Assembly: GCF_004117075.1 (NCBI RefSeq)
Contig: NZ_CP026721.1
Span: 1,984,001 to 2,048,000 of the forward strand
DNA: 64,000 nt
DNA from: Fervidobacterium changbaicum
GTDB lineage: Bacteria; Thermotogota; Thermotogae; Thermotogales; Fervidobacteriaceae
Reading direction: 5' to 3'
How positions within the stretch are numbered: the stretch's first letter is position 1; the number at the start of each line of letters is the position of its first letter. Both the position numbers and the translations under genes were made by a program. Shown piece after piece: positions 37,041 to 51,453 of the stretch. The notes beneath the pieces were generated by a model, which saw nothing but the letters and a program-made list of their open reading frames with translations, searched no databases and was not told where the DNA came from.

Positions 37041-40000
37041 ATGAAAGTGCTTTCGTTATTTGAAGAGCTCGTTCTGTATGTAACTATACCACTTGTTGCG
37101 CTCTTTGCCCACAAAGAGTATACCTACGAGTTCAGTACTCCAAAGTACGCGATCCTAACTATCTCGACACTGCTGATAGGGGTGTATCTACTCTTTAAAC
37201 TCTTACAAACAAAGAAGTTTAAGTTCTACGCGACCAAGGTTCATTTTGTTTGGCTAGCGTTTTCGATAGTGGCTTTGCTCTCGACAATAAACACATGGAG
37301 AGACAATCCTTACTTTTTTAGACAGGCTTTCGATATTGGATTATATTTGTTCTTGAACGTGCTTTGGGCATTTTATTTTTCAACGATTCTGGACGACAAG
37401 AAAAAGATTGCCAGGTTTCTCTTTGTTTTCGTGTTGACAGGATTGTTCGTCGCAATTAATGCGATTCTTAACTTTTACTTAGGTTACGATATAATGCTTG
37501 GACAAGTTGGGAGCCCATTTGAAAGAGCGAGTATAAAGGCGAATATAGGAAATGTGATATTTGTCTCGAACTACTTGAACATGCTTCTGCCTATTGCTCT
37601 TTATTTCGTCGTTAGTCTTGACCTTGGTGTTATAAACGTGCAAAGATTCTCCGCTATTTTCTTTTTGAAGTTCCTGTCATTGATTTCTGCGATCCTTTAT
37701 TTAGACGTGATTATATTTTCCCAAACAAGATCAGAATATCTGGCACTCGTTGTCGAAGTGATTCTACTGGTTGTTGCATACTTCTTTTTCATTAGAAAAC
37801 GTGAAGATAAAGCCGAAATGGAACTTCAAAAAAGTGCACCTAAGGTGCTCGCCAGATTGAAATCTTTGCGCCGGATCTCTGTTTTGGTATTCATTTTAAT
37901 GGCACTCTTACTTGTTGTTCTTTACAACATTCCGTCGCCGTTTAACAACTACGGAACTTTCACTATGACCGAAAGATTCAACGCTATGGCTTCGGTATCG
38001 AGTAGAGATGAAAGGTTCTTATCTTGGTTCTCTACGTTGTACATGTGGAAAAAACACAAACTCTTAGGTCAAGGGATAGGAACGTACCAACTCTATGGGC
38101 TTTACGGGATCGCAGACCTCACCGATGCCAAACCTATCTACAGTTATGGTTGGAACAATTTCAAAAGGGCGCACAACGATTATTTCCAGATACTCGGAGA
38201 AACAGGAGTAATTGGACTTTCGTTGATTGTTCTGATGCTTGTGCTACTCACCCTTTATATTGCAAGAAACATCCGCAAAATTCAAGATCGTGACGATATC
38301 ATCTTGTTTTCTATGCTCGTTTTGAGTGGTATAGTTTTCGCATTCCAAAGTGTCTTCAGTTTCCCAGGTCACCTCTTGCCAAATGCATTGCTGGCAACAT
38401 TCGTTATAAGTGCAGGGCTGGGCAAGTACTTCAATAAAGTTGATGGCAGAGAATACGAAGTAAAGGGAACAAGAGCTCTGACAGTTGGTTTTGTACTCAT
38501 ATTTGCTGTCGCTGGTTCAACGTACCTAAGATGGAATCATTTCGTTTCAGAGGTGTACTTTAGGAATGGGAACATCGCATTCCAAACTCTTGTAACATTG
38601 AGAGATCAGATGACGCAAATAGACAATTATCTGAAACAGTTAGACCAAATCGAGTCTGACTTGAATAATTTCTCAGGCCAATTCCAAATCTACTCGCCCG
38701 AGAATTGGCACAAGTATAAGCAATCTCAGTCTGGCACGTTGAGTGGACTCTACAACAGGGCGCAAGCGGAAAGTGAAAGACTGCAGAACATCCAAAACAT
38801 AAAAAACCAGATAGAACAGAATCGAAGAACACTGATTGCTCAAAAAGAAGCGATACCTCAAGAAGTCAAAAAATACTACGAAGAAGCAAAATCGTATTTC
38901 TTGAAAAGTATACAGCTAAACCATACCTACGGAAAGTCGTATTTCTATCTTGCTGCACTTGCCTCTGATCCGATAAGAATTGAAATGCTCAAAGAGGCGC
39001 TTAGGAAAGATCCGGAAGCGGTCTTAAGTCAAAATTACGATGAATATCAAAAGATACTACCAGAAAGGTTCAAGTACGCCTATTACAAAGATCTCGCAAA
39101 GTATATCAAGGAGAATCCTTCGTTCTTAGATAAAATAGACATGCCGACGGTTCAAGCACTTGTTGATTCATCTTGTCTGTACGAGTTCTCACTTCTCACG
39201 TTCACAGAAAGAAATACTTTCAAAACATTGGCAATCAGATACAACTCACTTTATCTTTTTACCAAAATGGTTACCGACACAATAGAGGACGAGGAACTCA
39301 AAAAGAAGACAGTGGCTCTTGAATCTGTTTTGTTCAATAAATTCGACACGTGGGTCAGAAGAACCCTCTACATAATGCCCGGTGGATGGAACAGGTTCCC
39401 GGACTGGAAAAACATCGATATTGAACTTGCAACAACCGGTGGGCAGGATATTTACCGATACTTCGCAAGTTTAACGGTCCAAGCATTGGATCCAGTTAAC
39501 GTTGATTCACGAAACCTACTTGTAGATATGGCAAAACTCGAAGCAAAAACGTGCAAGTACATGGAGGAAAAAGGTGTTTGGGGTGTGCCCGATGGTGTAC
39601 TTGATTATCTACATGCACTCGCCAGGGAGTACCAGATCATTTCGGAATACCAAGAGAGCATTGTTACGTATTCACAGTTACTTGAATGGTACAAAGAAAA
39701 CTACGACTACATCTCAAAGAAAGTTGACAACAAAGAATTTTGGGACAAGAGCTACGAAAAATTTGTTGAAGATTTGAAAAACCAGCTAGATTCGTTGCTG
39801 GCAAAGGATGATAAGGGATATCTCTCAAACAGCCTTACACCTATGTTTGAAGATAGGTTACGAAGATTGTACCAAACCATTATGAGTACTGACTTCAAGC
39901 AAATTGAGAAGGAATACGTAGATGAAATTGTGAAATACGCACCTTCACTTTGGCCGAGAGTGGGCAAGTCAAGTGTTTGGAAAACCAATGCTTATAATTC

Positions 40001-40319
40001 TATGAAAGATTTTGAAAACCAGCTGGGCGCTCTGAATTTCTCAGAAGAGGCGAGGAAAGAACTTAATTCGATTCTAACAGGTGTCATCAACACAGATTTG
40101 ATGAAGCTTTACGAAAGGTACGCACGCTTCAAGGCACATTACGAACTCATAAAAGACGAATTTCTCAACACAGCACAAGTTCTGATAAGTTTGTATCAGG
40201 AAAAACCAGAAGAAGAAATAATGAAGGACTGGAAAGAACCGATGTTCAGCATGCCTGAGTTTAAGAGTAAGGAAGAAGTCTTAAAGTTCCTGAACGAACT
40301 CATAGAAAAATACAAATAA
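37041..40319 (+). CDS. O-antigen ligase/polymerase-like membrane protein with large C-terminal domain
   Basis: A 1092-residue protein. The N-terminal about 490 residues hold 11-13 membrane helices and a Wzy_C signature, KRAHNDYFQILGETGVIG, as in O-antigen ligases and polymerases. The remaining 600 residues are soluble and mostly helical, including a coiled-coil region rich in Gln (about residues 515-610) and a TPR-like motif (EEAKSYFLKSIQLNHTYGKSYFYLAALA). The tail is far longer than in typical WaaL/Wzy proteins and I do not recognise it. It follows the sugar-phosphate transferase by 26 bp. Starts are ambiguous between ATG 37041 and GTG 37047. Confidence 0.88.
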   Translation: MKVLSLFEELVLYVTIPLVALFAHKEYTYEFSTPKYAILTISTLLIGVYLLFKLLQTKKFKFYATKVHFVWLAFSIVALLSTINTWRDNPYFFRQAFDIGLYLFLNVLWAFYFSTILDDKKKIARFLFVFVLTGLFVAINAILNFYLGYDIMLGQVGSPFERASIKANIGNVIFVSNYLNMLLPIALYFVVSLDLGVINVQRFSAIFFLKFLSLISAILYLDVIIFSQTRSEYLALVVEVILLVVAYFFFIRKREDKAEMELQKSAPKVLARLKSLRRISVLVFILMALLLVVLYNIPSPFNNYGTFTMTERFNAMASVSSRDERFLSWFSTLYMWKKHKLLGQGIGTYQLYGLYGIADLTDAKPIYSYGWNNFKRAHNDYFQILGETGVIGLSLIVLMLVLLTLYIARNIRKIQDRDDIILFSMLVLSGIVFAFQSVFSFPGHLLPNALLATFVISAGLGKYFNKVDGREYEVKGTRALTVGFVLIFAVAGSTYLRWNHFVSEVYFRNGNIAFQTLVTLRDQMTQIDNYLKQLDQIESDLNNFSGQFQIYSPENWHKYKQSQSGTLSGLYNRAQAESERLQNIQNIKNQIEQNRRTLIAQKEAIPQEVKKYYEEAKSYFLKSIQLNHTYGKSYFYLAALASDPIRIEMLKEALRKDPEAVLSQNYDEYQKILPERFKYAYYKDLAKYIKENPSFLDKIDMPTVQALVDSSCLYEFSLLTFTERNTFKTLAIRYNSLYLFTKMVTDTIEDEELKKKTVALESVLFNKFDTWVRRTLYIMPGGWNRFPDWKNIDIELATTGGQDIYRYFASLTVQALDPVNVDSRNLLVDMAKLEAKTCKYMEEKGVWGVPDGVLDYLHALAREYQIISEYQESIVTYSQLLEWYKENYDYISKKVDNKEFWDKSYEKFVEDLKNQLDSLLAKDDKGYLSNSLTPMFEDRLRRLYQTIMSTDFKQIEKEYVDEIVKYAPSLWPRVGKSSVWKTNAYNSMKDFENQLGALNFSEEARKELNSILTGVINTDLMKLYERYARFKAHYELIKDEFLNTAQVLISLYQEKPEEEIMKDWKEPMFSMPEFKSKEEVLKFLNELIEKYK

Positions 40320-42716: not shown

Positions 42717-42762
42717 CAGATAACCTCAGGGTATCGACCCTGGTTGTCGAGAGGTGAAACGT

Positions 42763-44121
42763 ATGCGGAACTTTTACAAAAAGACCATAACGAAGGTTCT
42801 TATCATTGTATCTTTTCTTCTATTCATTTCGGGATTTTCGATAAAGCCAGTCATTGAAGTTTCGGTAAATATCATTGGAAACGAGAACATTGAAAAGATA
42901 ACTAAAAGTGTTTTCTTATCTGAACTTCTTGACACAAACAAATTCACAGTAACCTTAGTAGACAACATTAAACAGCTTTTCTTTGAGATGAATCTCCAAG
43001 ATCTGCTCTCAACAGAAAATGTGATTCTTTCCAAACGTGAATATTCGAAGGGAACACTGAATGTGATCCTTTATCTGAGGAACTTAAATGTGAGAAAGGA
43101 AACAGTTGAATACGTACGAAACGATGTTTCTGGCGATTACATTTACGCTGATGGTAAGTACATTCGCGTCATTCAAGGCGCTTGGTTTAAATTTGATGGG
43201 AAAAACTATATTCAAGATGAGAATGGTATATACGTAAAGGGAACGGATGGTAAGTACTATTCAGCCTTGGCTTTCTATTCACGCGTGCCGCACGAAAACA
43301 CCTACTATGTTCTCGATTGTTCGATAAGTTACACGTTGAATGTAGAAAGCACTGATGTGAAAAAAGGTACATTCGATACACACTTAAGCGTTCCATTAGT
43401 TGAGCACAGATATGACCCGTACAACAATAAACTCTTAAGAATCGAGTACCCTTCTTCAGACATTTTGGATCGATTTGCTAAAAGTATAAGTTTTGAGCTG
43501 GCGAGCAGACTTATGGACCTCAGAAAGCTTTATGGCTTTGTCGAGAATGTAAGAATGCCACGGGTGCTAATTGATATCGGTTCGATAGATGGAGTGAAGC
43601 CAGGACTGTGTTTTGGAGTTTACGATGGGAACAATTACATCGCAGAACTAACGGTTGCACGTACTGGAGGCGACTACAGTGAGTGTGAAATAAAGTACAT
43701 CAAGAAGGGAGCTAAGATAGAAAGAGGTTTCTCTGTTGTGGAGAAGAAACCGGATTTTGTCATTCCGTTAGGTATCAGCGTTCTTTACATGTACCATCCA
43801 GAAAATCTTGGCGATATCTGTGCAGAGTTCTCTGTGAAGACTTTGGATATCCACCGAGAAGAGCTTTCTTCAGTTGCTTTCGGCTTGAGTTATGATTTAT
43901 CCAGCTCGGTAACTGATACCTTCCATGTGAGTTACTTACATCGCATGTTCTCTTCACCTGTTTATTTCATCGCGACTCTCAAAATACCAAAAGATTCCGC
44001 ATCCCACATTACTCTAATTCCAATGATAGGTCTAAACGTCAGATTCGGCATTTTCACGCTCAGAGCACTTACTACCATCGATCTTTCCAACTTTGAAATA
44101 GGTGGTGGTATCTCATGGTGA
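42763..44121 (+). CDS. Secreted/outer-envelope protein with Tyr-Gly repeats and apparent C-terminal barrel (protein A)
   Basis: A 452-residue protein I cannot assign. A signal peptide (residues 8-28) is followed by a variable domain. A Tyr/Gly-rich repeat region (about residues 115-175: GDYIYADGKYIRV, GIYVKGTDGKYYS) comes next. A segment with GSIDGVKPGLCFGVYDGNNY resembles the C-terminal module of FlgT/CsgG-like proteins. The last 110 residues alternate polar and hydrophobic positions and end in an aromatic (GGGISW), as in outer-membrane beta-strands. It overlaps the next, related gene by 7 nt. The toga or outer membrane is the likely location. Confidence 0.75.
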   Translation: MRNFYKKTITKVLIIVSFLLFISGFSIKPVIEVSVNIIGNENIEKITKSVFLSELLDTNKFTVTLVDNIKQLFFEMNLQDLLSTENVILSKREYSKGTLNVILYLRNLNVRKETVEYVRNDVSGDYIYADGKYIRVIQGAWFKFDGKNYIQDENGIYVKGTDGKYYSALAFYSRVPHENTYYVLDCSISYTLNVESTDVKKGTFDTHLSVPLVEHRYDPYNNKLLRIEYPSSDILDRFAKSISFELASRLMDLRKLYGFVENVRMPRVLIDIGSIDGVKPGLCFGVYDGNNYIAELTVARTGGDYSECEIKYIKKGAKIERGFSVVEKKPDFVIPLGISVLYMYHPENLGDICAEFSVKTLDIHREELSSVAFGLSYDLSSSVTDTFHVSYLHRMFSSPVYFIATLKIPKDSASHITLIPMIGLNVRFGIFTLRALTTIDLSNFEIGGGISW

Positions 44122-46121
44122 GAAACCATCTTAAGCGTTTAAATATTTGTGCATTCATAATTACGGTTATTTTTTCCTCAATCATCTTTGCACAAGGTGG
44201 AAATTTGAAACTCAGGGTCGTTTTTGATAAGAGTGTTAAACCTTTTTACGAGAATGTTGACCTTAACATTTCATTAATGAGCACATTCTCAGATGTAAAA
44301 GAAAACACTGCGAGAATCGTTCATGTGATAGGTGTGTCAAAAGAATCTATAACCCGAAAAGTAAATGACTTTGTGCGTGATGAAAAGGGAGATTACGTTT
44401 ATTTCAAAGGAAGCTATTACCGAATATCCGATAAAAGAAGGTATTCCTACGATGAAAAGCAGAAAAAGTTTGTAGTTGATAAAAACGGCAGGTATGTATA
44501 TCTTCAGGAATATGCCTGGGCGAGAAAGCAAGAGGATAAGTACGTAATTAGTGACTTTTATGCGTTGAAAAGCTACGAAGTGCAGGAAACGAAGTACTTT
44601 ATATTTCTTGTAGTAACAGATATAGAAATATCGACGTTCTTCATCAAATCGATAACCCCGATTGTTGGGAAAGGTTCCACAATTGAAAAGGCGATTGAGA
44701 ACGCGCACAGGAGATTTTCAACGGTAGTAAACGAGTACAGTCCTGATAAGCTGGACATCGCCGTTCTTTTTGAGAAAGGTTTCGACCCCGTTTTGCGAAC
44801 AGCCCTATTAACGCAGTTGCAAGAAGACACAAGGTACAATATTTACGACAGGCTTTACATAGATGAGGTTATGGAGATCCTACGAACTTCAGATTTGTTC
44901 GGTGTAGAGCAAATCGTTCTTAAATTCCGCCCGCCAAAGTACCTAATTACGTTCGAAAACTTAGTCCAGCTTGATAATCAAACCGCTGAGGACAGATACT
45001 ACTTTTTCGAAAACCCAGTCAACGGACAATACATAAGAAGGACAATAAATGGTTTGGATGTGCCGGTGAGGGTTGAAGTCGGCGGTTATTATCGATACGA
45101 TAGTACTAACAAAAGGTACGTTTTTGACATCGAGAAAGGTTCTTATGTAAAGTACTACAAGGGGCCTTGGGAGAAGGATAATTACGTTTTTGAGACGAGG
45201 TTCTACGACTACAACCTGTATAAACCCACAAGGCTCACAACATTTTATTCGTTTCTCATGAAGGTGTTCGATACACAAAAGGGTACACTTGTCAGTAGTA
45301 AATTCTTTAGTAAGAGTATAGAAACTATCCTGAAAGAGCCTGTCGATCGATTTGGCTCTGAAGTTGTGAACTTCCACACAGATGGGAAAGTTGAAAGTTA
45401 TTACTCAGCTGCGAGACAAGTTCAAGAATTCCTTCAAACGGTCTTTCCTCTCACTGCAGTTATTTCCGAGACCTTTGGCGAGAAAGCGATAGTTGAAGGT
45501 GGTAAAAACATAGGTGCAAAGCCGGGTTACGTTTTTCAAAGCGTATCGGAGGGTTACACAACGGGCTTTTTGAGGTTGGAGAAGGTTCTTGAAAAGAGTT
45601 CCGAAGGTAAAATCTTCTATATTGTCCCAGGTGATGATGTTGAACCACACACGCTCGCCTTTGAAACAAAAATGTACCCCAACAACATAGGCCTGCGATT
45701 TGGTATGTTTATGAACAAAGAAGCCTACGGTATGAAAATAGGGTATATAAGAAGCGATATCTACGGAAATTATCTGTGGTCACTCACATTCTCTCTTGGA
45801 ATTCCTTATAATGCGAATTCTCAGTCTGACAAAACGATAGTTCCAATGGGTTTGGAATTCTCAAAATTCTTGTTCGGTGAGAATTTTGAGTTAGTACTTG
45901 GCACATCCGTTAAGTACATTTCAGAAAACTCAGGTGAGACTTATATTAGCGATTACGAAATTGTCGCTGGTGTGACGCTCTCATCGTATGTGCGAAATTC
46001 CGTACTATCTTACGGAGGTGCTTGCTTTTACACAAGTTTGACTTACACACTCCCAATGAGTAATTTCGAGTTATCACAAAACAACATAAACATTTCTCTT
46101 GGATTCGACCTTAGGTTCTAA
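44115..46121 (+). CDS. Secreted/outer-envelope protein with CsgG-like domain, Tyr-Gly repeats and C-terminal barrel (protein B)
   Basis: A 668-residue relative of protein A. A signal peptide ends near IIFAQGG. Tyr-rich repeats (GDYVYFKGSYYRI, NGRYVYLQEYAW) occupy about residues 90-140, and a third copy, GYYRYDSTNKRYVFD, is at about 325. Between them KLDIAVLFEKGFDPVLRTAL with YDRLYIDEVMEIL resembles CsgG/LpoB-like folds. A later GGKNIGAKPGYVFQ module matches the one in protein A. The C-terminal about 140 residues look like an outer-membrane barrel ending SLGFDLRF. ATG 44115 has GGTGGTGG upstream. Confidence 0.75.
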   Translation: MVRNHLKRLNICAFIITVIFSSIIFAQGGNLKLRVVFDKSVKPFYENVDLNISLMSTFSDVKENTARIVHVIGVSKESITRKVNDFVRDEKGDYVYFKGSYYRISDKRRYSYDEKQKKFVVDKNGRYVYLQEYAWARKQEDKYVISDFYALKSYEVQETKYFIFLVVTDIEISTFFIKSITPIVGKGSTIEKAIENAHRRFSTVVNEYSPDKLDIAVLFEKGFDPVLRTALLTQLQEDTRYNIYDRLYIDEVMEILRTSDLFGVEQIVLKFRPPKYLITFENLVQLDNQTAEDRYYFFENPVNGQYIRRTINGLDVPVRVEVGGYYRYDSTNKRYVFDIEKGSYVKYYKGPWEKDNYVFETRFYDYNLYKPTRLTTFYSFLMKVFDTQKGTLVSSKFFSKSIETILKEPVDRFGSEVVNFHTDGKVESYYSAARQVQEFLQTVFPLTAVISETFGEKAIVEGGKNIGAKPGYVFQSVSEGYTTGFLRLEKVLEKSSEGKIFYIVPGDDVEPHTLAFETKMYPNNIGLRFGMFMNKEAYGMKIGYIRSDIYGNYLWSLTFSLGIPYNANSQSDKTIVPMGLEFSKFLFGENFELVLGTSVKYISENSGETYISDYEIVAGVTLSSYVRNSVLSYGGACFYTSLTYTLPMSNFELSQNNINISLGFDLRF

Positions 46122-47704
46122 CGTTCTAAATCTTCGGTTTTTTCCATCTTGATATGTGGAATTCCAGCTTCGTAGAAGACATGGCCAACAGATTTGTAAC
46201 CGAGTTTTTCGTAGAATTCACGAACCTCAAGCTGAGCATTTAGTGTGATCGGCTTGGGGTTCGTTCTCTTTATATAACTTTCTATCGCCTCCATTATCTT
46301 CTTGCCGTATCCAAGCCCGCGGAACTCCTTCAGAACTGCGACACGTTCAACCTTCCAGTACTCTCCGATGTCCCTGATCCTTGCCGTTGCTACGTATTTG
46401 CCAAAATGTCTGACTAAAAAGTGTATCGCTTGTTCATCTCTACCGTCGAGTTCCAATCTTTCGTCGATCCCCTGGCCGATGACGAAGACCTCGTGCCTGA
46501 TTCTTTTGCATTCTTCAAATCTTTTATCCGGTAATTTGAAGTGTTCTATTGTCAATAGTTTATCGTACGCATCTTTTAGGCGATTCAATCCTTCTTTCAA
46601 AATGGCTCTAGGACATGCGAAGTTCAGCCTGACCGACTGGCCATCACCAAACTCTGCTCCGTCGTTCAAATAAACCTTTGCGTTCTCTAAGAAGAACTTT
46701 TGAGGATTTTCAAGACCAAGCGATGAACAATCAAGCCACATCAGATACGTTCCTTCTGGGAGGGTTGGTTTCACAAGCGGCATATGTTCTTTTATGAAAT
46801 GGTAGGCAAAATCCCGGTTTACTTTTAAATAGTTTCTTAACTGAACAACCCATTCGTCGCATTTATAAGCTGCCTTCAGCGCTTCAAGACTTAATACATT
46901 GCCTGTCAAAAGTTCGAGCGATTCTATGTAATTTTTGTAATTCTGCCTGAGAATCTTGTCGGAGATTATCCCGTAAGCGTTTGTCAAACCGGCGATGTTA
47001 AACGTCTTTCCCGGCGAGTTAAGTACGATTACATTTTCCTTTCCCACTTTCAGAAAACTTGTAAAAGAATTTGGCTCGTAGATTATATCAGCATGGATCT
47101 CATCGGAGACAATTAAGATGTTGTGCCTTTTGGCTATTTCGTATAGTTTCGAGAGTTCATCGAAAGTCCACACCCTGCCAACTGGATTATGCGGATTTGA
47201 GATAACTATCATTTTTGTTCGTTTATCGATTGATCTTTCCAAACCTTCGTAATCCATCACCCATTTGCCGTCTTTCAAAATCAACCTGTTCTCAACAAGT
47301 CGTCTTCCGTTGTTTTCCACTACTTTGAAAAACGGAGGGTACACCGGTGGTTGAATGATGACCTTATCTCCTGGGAGGGTAAAGATGTTGATTAGGAATG
47401 CTATCATAGGTACAACTCCGGGACCGTTGACTATCCATTCCTTTTCTATTCTTACACCGTAAGATTTTTCGTACCATTCAATTATCGCTTCGTAGTACTC
47501 GTCTGAGCGGAACGTGTATCCAAAGACCCCGTGTTCTACACGCTTTCTTAGAGCTTCAATGACACAATATGGACTCTTGAAGTCCATATCTGCAACCCAC
47601 ATGGGAATTACATCATCACCGTAGAGCTTAATTATCATATCCCATTTGAAAGAATCTGTGTTTTTTCTGTTTATGAGCTCGTCGAATTGATAACCTTTTT
47701 CCAT
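46118..47704 (-). CDS. PatB/MalY-type PLP aminotransferase fused to a GNAT acetyltransferase
   Basis: A 528-residue fusion. Residues 1 to about 385 form a fold-type I PLP enzyme of the PatB/MalY (cystathionine beta-lyase-like) group: MWVADMDF, GPGVVPMIA, VSDEIHADIIY and the Schiff-base Lys in NSPGKTFNIAG. Residues from about 390 are a GNAT domain, ending ECKRIRHEVFVIGQGI, VERVAVLKEFRGLGYGKKIM (acetyl-CoA loop) and VREFYEKLGYKSVG, close to the ElaA type. The PLP part usually cleaves C-S bonds or transaminates. The two parts read through with no frameshift. The stop overlaps the convergent barrel gene (CTAA). Confidence 0.88.
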   Translation of the reverse strand: MEKGYQFDELINRKNTDSFKWDMIIKLYGDDVIPMWVADMDFKSPYCVIEALRKRVEHGVFGYTFRSDEYYEAIIEWYEKSYGVRIEKEWIVNGPGVVPMIAFLINIFTLPGDKVIIQPPVYPPFFKVVENNGRRLVENRLILKDGKWVMDYEGLERSIDKRTKMIVISNPHNPVGRVWTFDELSKLYEIAKRHNILIVSDEIHADIIYEPNSFTSFLKVGKENVIVLNSPGKTFNIAGLTNAYGIISDKILRQNYKNYIESLELLTGNVLSLEALKAAYKCDEWVVQLRNYLKVNRDFAYHFIKEHMPLVKPTLPEGTYLMWLDCSSLGLENPQKFFLENAKVYLNDGAEFGDGQSVRLNFACPRAILKEGLNRLKDAYDKLLTIEHFKLPDKRFEECKRIRHEVFVIGQGIDERLELDGRDEQAIHFLVRHFGKYVATARIRDIGEYWKVERVAVLKEFRGLGYGKKIMEAIESYIKRTNPKPITLNAQLEVREFYEKLGYKSVGHVFYEAGIPHIKMEKTEDLER

Positions 47705-49532: not shown

Positions 49533-49587
49533 CTTTTCTGGAGACAATTGAAACGCACAATTTTGGAAAATAACAGGGGGTGTGGGC

Positions 49588-51453
49588 ATGAGTGCAAGAA
49601 TACTTCTAATTCCGAAACCAAAAGTATTAAAGTGGACCTTTGAAGAATCGGCAATTACAGAAATTCCCAAGTATGGTTTTATCTACACAACGAACGAAAA
49701 AATAGCGAGATATCTTAAGCGCAGTGCAGAATCATTTGCGGGATATACAGTAACAAAATCTACAAACGGTGATGAGTTCGTTCAGTTGATTTCAAATCCC
49801 TATCTTTTTCCAAAACAAGAGAGTTACAGACTGGTAATAGACGGAAGAATTACGATAATCGCCCATGATGATGCGGGTCTGTTCTATGGAGTACAAACGC
49901 TAAGGCAGATTTTGAGACAAAGTTCTCACTTCAATGGTTTGCCGAATGTATTTATCGAAGATTATCCAGACTTTTTGTATCGAGGCATAATGATAGATGT
50001 AAGTCGTGACAGAATTCCAAAACTCGAGGTGCTTAAATTCATCATCGAAAAACTTTCAGAGCTGAAGATAAACCAACTGCAGCTTTACACAGAGCACACG
50101 TTTGCCTACAGAGGTCATGAAAAGGTGTGGGAAGACTACAGCCCGTTAACACACGAAGAAATCATTGAGCTCGATGCCTTTTGCAAATCGCATTTCATTG
50201 AACTTGTCCCTAATCAGAACACGTTCGGACATCTGAGTAAATGGCTCATACACGATGAATACAAGCATCTTGCCGAGGCATCAGATGGATATGAAACACC
50301 ATGGGGAGGACGGTACGAGTACCCGTTTTCCATCTCGCCGGCAGTACCTGAATCTGTGAAGTTTGTTGAAGACATTCTCAGGGAGTTCTTGCCAAACTTC
50401 TCAAGTGAGCAGGTGAATATAGGCTGTGATGAGACGTTTGACTTAGGGCAGGGGAAATCGAAAGACTTGTGTGAAAGATATGGGAAAGGAAAGGTATATT
50501 TTGATTTTCTGATGAAGATCTACAATATCGCAAAAAGATACAAAAAGGCTGTTATGTTCTGGGGAGATATCATTGAGAATCATCCCGAATTCATCCCGCA
50601 GTTGCCGAAAGATATGATCGCAATGGTGTGGGGTTACGAGGCTGATCACCCATTTGACGAAAAGTGCGAACTTTATTCGAAAAGCGGTCTGTCGTTCTAC
50701 GTTTGCCCCGGCACGTCCACGTGGAACACCTTTATCGGAAGAACAGATAACGCAATTGAGAACATAAAGAATGCGGTTTACAATGGATATAAGCACGGTG
50801 CGATAGGAGTTCTAACTACGGATTGGGGAGACAACGGACATCCACAACACTTGCCTTTCTCATGGATAGGATTTGCTTTCAGTGCGGCTTTAGGATGGAA
50901 CATCGCCGGGTTGGAAGTTGATGAACTTCTGGACGCTGTAAATCTCCATGTATTTGAAACAGAAAGACCTTTAGCTCAGTTCATACACAGACTTGGACAA
51001 CTACACAATGCATTACCGTATACACCGAATGGAACTCCTTACTTCTACGCGTTTGTCTACCCAGATAGATTCAGTCAGAACGAGAAACTGAAAGAAATCA
51101 GTTACGAAACGTTAGAAAACATCGAGAGTGAACTAAAAACAATGAAGAAGGAGCTCAGTTCATTGGTTTCAGAAGAAAGTAAGCTCTCGGACGTAGTGGA
51201 ACAAATAAGCAACAACATGGACTTTGCGAAGTTGGGATTGCAAGTACTAAGATTTTTAAGAACGTACGGTTCTGTTGAAAATATCCCTGAGGATGAGTGG
51301 AACGAATTCGATAAAGAAATTGATCGTGTTTTGGAAGATTACAGACGAATTTGGTTGAGTTGCAACAGAAAAGGAGGATTAGAGCAGAGCATATATAAAC
51401 TGACTCGAATAAGAAGAGTTCGAAAAGGAGATAAGCGGGGGTTGATCTTCTAA
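49588..51453 (+). CDS. Beta-N-acetylhexosaminidase (GH20)
   Basis: A 621-residue GH20 enzyme that releases GlcNAc or GalNAc from non-reducing ends. An N-terminal GH20b domain (about residues 1-125; DDAGLFYGVQTLRQIL) precedes the barrel, with YRGIMIDVSRDRIP, QNTFGH and the catalytic Asp-Glu in NIGCDETFDLG. It lacks a signal peptide, so it acts in the cytoplasm on imported oligosaccharides. A helical C-terminal region (about 490-621) follows. ATG 49588 has GGGGGTG upstream. It heads a three-gene operon. Confidence 0.93.
   Translation: MSARILLIPKPKVLKWTFEESAITEIPKYGFIYTTNEKIARYLKRSAESFAGYTVTKSTNGDEFVQLISNPYLFPKQESYRLVIDGRITIIAHDDAGLFYGVQTLRQILRQSSHFNGLPNVFIEDYPDFLYRGIMIDVSRDRIPKLEVLKFIIEKLSELKINQLQLYTEHTFAYRGHEKVWEDYSPLTHEEIIELDAFCKSHFIELVPNQNTFGHLSKWLIHDEYKHLAEASDGYETPWGGRYEYPFSISPAVPESVKFVEDILREFLPNFSSEQVNIGCDETFDLGQGKSKDLCERYGKGKVYFDFLMKIYNIAKRYKKAVMFWGDIIENHPEFIPQLPKDMIAMVWGYEADHPFDEKCELYSKSGLSFYVCPGTSTWNTFIGRTDNAIENIKNAVYNGYKHGAIGVLTTDWGDNGHPQHLPFSWIGFAFSAALGWNIAGLEVDELLDAVNLHVFETERPLAQFIHRLGQLHNALPYTPNGTPYFYAFVYPDRFSQNEKLKEISYETLENIESELKTMKKELSSLVSEESKLSDVVEQISNNMDFAKLGLQVLRFLRTYGSVENIPEDEWNEFDKEIDRVLEDYRRIWLSCNRKGGLEQSIYKLTRIRRVRKGDKRGLIF

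Follow-up and report, generated by a model that had tools for sequence, protein, structure and literature searches.

The locus studied here raises the question of what two adjacent genes of the heat-loving Fervidobacterium changbaicum, referred to as A and B, contribute to the cell envelope. Searches of Pfam, NCBIfam, PHROGs and PDB sequences with the single A and B proteins gave nothing convincing and assigned them to no described family, and the PDB profile matches of A1, A2, A4 and A5 were dismissed as chance-like. Both genes lie in a window of 64,000 nucleotides (contig NZ_CP026721.1), whose positions are used below. A preliminary description had seen in them tandem, related envelope proteins with Tyr-Gly repeats, CsgG/FlgT-like modules and C-terminal barrels.

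Overlapping genes and their conserved junction

Both open reading frames were found where the preliminary description had placed them, in tandem and overlapping by 7 nt (ATGGTGA). Gene A extends over 42763..44121 (+) and encodes 452 aa from the ATG at 42763, directly upstream of which lies the ribosome site GAGAGGTG. An in-frame GTG at 42754 is the A start in the list of open reading frames, and the residue numbers of the A model follow this GTG numbering. Gene B extends over 44115..46121 (+) and encodes 668 aa. At the junction (44100..44121, +), the glycine codons of A, GGTGGTGG, form a putative ribosome site for B and are followed by ATGGTGA, with A ending in W-stop and B beginning with M-V. 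The same junction was found in all 13 loci of the order, where A ends with TGG-TRA, B starts with ATG-GT and the overlap is exactly 7 nt, and where GGTGGTGG or near variants among the A glycine codons are able to act as the B ribosome site. From this recurrence across the 13 loci, we infer that A and B are translationally coupled and made in a fixed ratio. The 7-nt overlap was missing in three genomes of family f10.

Each protein starts with a signal-peptide-like helix, as had been proposed. In A, the signal peptide (42763..42840, +) was recognized in the sequence and corresponds to helix 2-28 of the AlphaFold model, while that of B (44115..44192, +; IIFA/QGG) corresponds to helix 2-26. Inspection of both sequences found no lipobox cysteine.

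Domain architecture and relationship of A and B

AlphaFold models built on 16 (A) and 13 (B) orthologues reached a mean pLDDT of 79 and pTM values of 0.57-0.61. The predicted order of parts in A is a signal peptide, a CsgG/FlgT-fold domain with one Tyr-Gly module, an FlgT_C-like domain and an 8-stranded barrel. The first of these domains (residues 33-256; 42850..43521, +), assigned by AlphaFold, Foldseek and a profile match to B, is an alpha/beta domain with two 23-residue strands (100-122 and 175-197), in which residues 68-96 were poorly modelled. It is followed by a beta domain (residues 260-331; 43522..43749, +; IDGVKPGLCFGV), assigned as FlgT_C-like by hhalign and by sub-threshold Pfam FlgT_C matches in orthologues, and by eight strands within residues 339-454, with a pLDDT mostly about 90. 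The B model repeats this layout and adds an N-terminal domain (residues 33-204) with its own Tyr-Gly module. The N-terminal part of B comprises the signal peptide, the N-terminal domain with module 1 (44211..44729, +), which the model and a profile match to the second domain indicate to be a partial CsgG-type repeat, and a CsgG/FlgT-fold domain with module 2 (44742..45443, +; RYNIYDRLYIDEVMEIL), supported by the model, Foldseek and sub-threshold Pfam CsgG matches in orthologues. The C-terminal part comprises an FlgT_C-like beta domain (45444..45674, +; NIGAKPGYVFQ), assigned by profile matches and modelled with a pLDDT of about 45-70, and then an 8-stranded barrel.

Among solved structures, Foldseek identified FlgT as the best match of A (3w1e, E 1.4e-7; 8z5n, 2.6e-7), followed by the designed transmembrane barrel 6x9z. 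FlgT was also the best match of B (1.1e-3), and several CsgG chains were found with a probability of about 1 (4uv2, probability 1.00, TMt up to 0.43). Given the low whole-chain TM-scores of both proteins and the pTM values above, the domains match while their relative placement is not fixed by the models. Regarding Pfam, three of the 13 B orthologues gave a CsgG (PF03783) match below the gathering score (best E 0.0026), whereas A and the B of the window gave none. Likewise, FlgT_C (PF16538) matched three of the 16 A orthologues below the gathering score (best E 0.0065) and gave no match in the A of the window. In FlgT, a protein of the Vibrio flagellar H-ring, a CsgG/TolB-type domain precedes an FlgT_C-like one, the same order as in A and B, which differ in having the Tyr-Gly module as well as a predicted outer-membrane barrel of eight strands at the C-terminus, and in that no flagellar locus was seen around them.

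The two proteins are paralogues, and their relatedness is far above chance. An hhalign comparison of the family profiles aligned A 25-380 with B 197-547 (probability 99.9, E 1.8e-35), which covers nearly all of A as far as the first barrel strands, and the single sequences matched by BLASTP with E 6e-5. By domain, the CsgG/FlgT-fold domain of A matched B 210-443 (E 2e-20), the N-terminal domain of B matched its second domain (E 3e-14), and the module that had been described as shared (IDGVKPG in A, NIGAKPG in B) gave E 1.9e-17.

Moreover, the A and B profiles reached proteins of about 400 aa elsewhere in the phylum, with CsgG, FlgT_C and barrel parts and without the Tyr-Gly module, two of them in the window genome (G000:C1 2161181-2162392 and 150806-151939). 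These paralogues matched A and B by hhalign with E values from 7.5e-8 to 1.9e-14; among those tested, two pass the Pfam CsgG cut-off, one DUF2715 (barrel) and one nears FlgO. The profile link to the CsgG-passing paralogues (E 5.5e-11), together with AlphaFold and Foldseek, supported the CsgG/FlgT-like modules of the preliminary description. When the first set of paralogues was aligned to A and B, the gap was the Tyr-Gly module, at a position that we take to be the hairpin where CsgG has its first transmembrane hairpin.

The surroundings of the module-less paralogues showed some recurrent arrangements. In genera g3 and g5, a gene for a large lipoprotein comes after the paralogue, and the g3 lipoprotein passes LPP20. 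At the g3 loci L046, L047, L048 and L049, A and B are joined by two further genes in the order A-B-C-D, C encoding a CsgG-FlgT_C-barrel paralogue and D the LPP20-domain lipoprotein, and C-D appears without A-B in L126. In family f10 (L120, L121 and L123), a module-less paralogue is flanked by transporter ATPase genes on one side and a uvrB-like gene on the other, while in two Fervidobacterium loci (L045 and L055) the A-B pair follows a uvrB-like gene, and this common neighbour points to a possible shared ancestry of both loci.

The Tyr-Gly module

The repeats of the form GDYxYxxGxYxR that had been ascribed to both proteins are literally present in them (GDYIYADGKYIR; GDYVYFKGSYYR). The Tyr-Gly module is a discrete unit of about 70 residues, found once in A (43087..43287, +), where it was modelled with a pLDDT of 86-91 at the tip of the long hairpin of strands 100-122 and 175-197, and twice in B (module 1, 44340..44558, +; module 2, 44976..45230, +), as indicated by the AlphaFold model and profile matches. 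In both proteins it is inserted into the corresponding hairpin of the CsgG-fold domain, and the three modules match one another with E values of 3e-12 to 3e-14 in profile comparisons. Across 103 Thermotogota genomes, the module profile detected three copies in every carrier with a complete pair (one in A and two in B) and only two weak partial matches outside A and B. The modules are also the best conserved parts, with a mean pairwise identity of 0.41-0.46, compared to 0.35-0.40 for the FlgT_C domains and 0.25-0.33 for the CsgG cores and barrels. Their likeness to choline-binding-type or oligopeptide repeats is weak and possibly compositional, and a weak match between the module profile and the repeats in a clostridial toxin structure hints at a repeat-type glycan binder. 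No known peptidoglycan-binding domain was found in A or B. The module is apparently undescribed so far.

Predicted membrane anchoring

The C-terminal barrels and aromatic ends anticipated by the preliminary description were recovered in both proteins, with eight predicted strands each. The barrel of A (43756..44118, +) ends in Trp and is indicated by the model, the Foldseek match to 6x9z and strand alternation, and that of B (45672..46118, +) ends in Phe and is indicated by the model, strand alternation and Foldseek matches to the OprF barrel (4rlc, TMt 0.65), NspA (1p4t, TMt 0.53) and OmpA (1bxw). Even/odd hydrophobicity along the barrel strands of the window proteins was above that of shuffles (p 0.006 and 0.0004), and none of 5000 shuffles was as high as the family means of A and B. 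In contrast, no hydrophobic alternation was detected in the long hairpin strands of A and B by the same kind of test (p 0.4-0.9). Therefore, the membrane part is likely the barrel and not the hairpin. Strand number, alternation and terminal aromatic residue are as in small barrels such as the OprF/OmpA N-domain, NspA and DUF2715, although OmpA and OprF have the reverse order, the barrel of A and B being C-terminal, behind the periplasmic domains. The N-terminal side of a C-terminal 8-stranded barrel is expected in the periplasm.

These results bear on whether A and B constitute a CsgG-like secretion pore, in which they would oligomerise via the CsgG-fold domains, with long hairpins that line the outer membrane or insert into it, and export a substrate. 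Such a pore would agree with the CsgG fold that B has in common with CsgG/HfaB (curli secretion lipoprotein, PF03783), with the CsgG-family paralogues and with a Tyr-Gly module placed in what is presumably the loop carrying the first transmembrane hairpin in CsgG. However, the alternation is found in the barrels and not in the hairpins, which are not amphipathic and contain the Tyr-Gly module, every chain comes with a barrel of its own rather than sharing a pore, the lipobox is missing, and no conserved candidate substrate or partner gene lies beside the pair. Overall, a secretion pore seems unlikely.

Distribution and genomic neighbourhood

Single-sequence searches over the 103 Thermotogota genomes detected A in 16 genomes of five genera, and full or partial B in 17, the last of which (G051) is a weak match with stops. 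Of the nine Fervidobacterium genomes, seven carry the pair, as do four genomes of g3, two of g10 and three of family f10 (g35 and g36). Each of the 16 A genes has B directly 3′ of it, either whole or truncated by a contig end, so the conserved pairing is strict within these 16 of 103 genomes, and the A-B distance correlation (r 0.98) reflects shared vertical descent only. A predicted barrel, a shared module and a conserved pairing, the lack of any of which had been named as an argument against the preliminary description, were all found. Most Thermotogota lacked the pair, among them every genome of family f2, and A was absent from one Fervidobacterium genome that is 97% complete (G074). Furthermore, a genome-contig collection scanned twice returned only two Fervidobacterium MAGs, although distant relatives may exist outside the phylum, and scans of viral contigs and plasmids gave no match.

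The pair had also been placed in an operon with PIG-L, FluC and DUF190. These genes do adjoin it here, but the full set of three does so in no more than the window genome and two closely related species; a third relative has PIG-L without FluC and DUF190, and PIG-L occurs near the pair in four genomes in total. Not being conserved neighbours, they were rejected as parts of the system, as was the Wzy_C gene, whose presence in 97 of 103 genomes makes its adjacency non-specific. For the same reason, the Wzy_C (O-antigen ligase-like) protein of the window (37041-40319, +), with 1,092 aa and a long C-terminal extension, is likely a core surface-glycan ligase or polymerase of the phylum. On the other side of the pair, a single frame of 528 aa at 46118-47704 (−) joins an aminotransferase of the PatB/MalY type to a C-terminal GNAT acetyltransferase (Aminotran_1_2, E 6e-43; Acetyltransf_10, E 3e-18), with proteins of similar length at this position in three relatives. 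A glycoside hydrolase of family 20, with both the catalytic and the N-terminal domain of GH20, is encoded near the envelope genes at 49582-51453 (+).

A second alternative is an anchor for a surface polysaccharide or adhesin, by which the pair would retain or export a glycan made by the products of adjacent genes. A Wzy_C ligase-like gene lies near the pair in four Fervidobacterium and four g3 genomes, Glycos_transf_4 and PIG-L genes do so in some genomes, the module is aromatic, and there is a precedent in the holdfast anchor HfaB, a CsgG-like protein that anchors a surface glycan complex (PMC6707917). Considering that Wzy_C is nearly universal and PIG-L is near the pair in four genomes only, we deem this anchor improbable and rank it below the secretion pore.

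The last alternative is a flagellar outer-ring accessory similar to the FlgT/FlgO/FlgP H-ring, bracing the flagellum across the outer membrane and toga. In its favour, FlgT heads the structural matches, FlhA and FlgH are present in every carrier, the 23 genomes that lack FlhA/FlgH also lack the pair, and in g3 the LPP20 lipoprotein lies downstream of the pair and the paralogue. Nevertheless, the co-occurrence with flagella, with p 0.012 by genome, is not significant by genus (p 0.40), A is missing in 64 of 80 flagellated genomes (G074 among them), and no flagellar genes appear among the identified neighbours, which leaves this as the least probable reading. Neither the secretion pore nor the flagellar outer ring is well supported.

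Proposed function

The best explanation overall, which we advance tentatively, is that A-B forms an outer-membrane-anchored periplasmic scaffold with a possible glycan-binding module. A and B would be partner proteins that are translated together and reside in the outer membrane, where each is held by its predicted C-terminal 8-stranded barrel, with the CsgG/FlgT-fold domains, the FlgT_C-like domains and the Tyr-Gly modules hanging below the membrane on the periplasmic side, as the barrel topology suggests. The CsgG/FlgT-fold parts probably allow A and B to associate, perhaps as a ring-like or paired scaffold, as relatives of FlgT and CsgG build rings at the outer membrane. Since the Tyr-Gly modules are at the hairpin tip, most conserved and rich in aromatic residues, they are the likely working surface, and their best-guess ligand would be a glycan, either peptidoglycan or a wall or toga polysaccharide. 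Such binding would tie the outer membrane to the wall or set the spacing between them.

The known toga spacer Omp-alpha has an SLH domain and a coiled coil (PMC9388160). As is predicted for A and B, Omp-alpha/Omp-beta and SlpA/OmpM are anchored in the outer membrane with a large periplasmic part (PMC9388160, PMC3387000), whereas no Pfam match to an SLH domain was found in A or B and their predicted models contain no long coiled coil. Moreover, since most Thermotogota and all of family f2 lack the pair, a general role in the toga is ruled out for it, and it would be an accessory of some lineages.

A further-reaching version of this scaffold would be a heteromeric outer-membrane complex whose CsgG/FlgT-type domains are anchored by the small barrels of the same chains and whose novel Tyr-Gly module binds glycan and so fastens membrane to wall, the shorter CsgG-FlgT_C-barrel relatives making up a wider unrecognised family of the Thermotogota envelope. 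In this full form, it is rather doubtful, albeit ahead of the three alternatives above. A and B are probably CsgG/FlgT-fold envelope proteins of a new variant, and the pair is probably an undescribed envelope scaffold.

Apart from Omp-alpha and Omp-beta, little of the Thermotogota envelope, known as the toga, has been well explained, and this conserved pair provides a concrete candidate for outer-membrane bracing in a deep-branching diderm lineage. By fusing domains of the flagellar-ring and curli type to small barrels, it would represent a reuse of the CsgG/FlgT fold in barrel-anchored envelope proteins.
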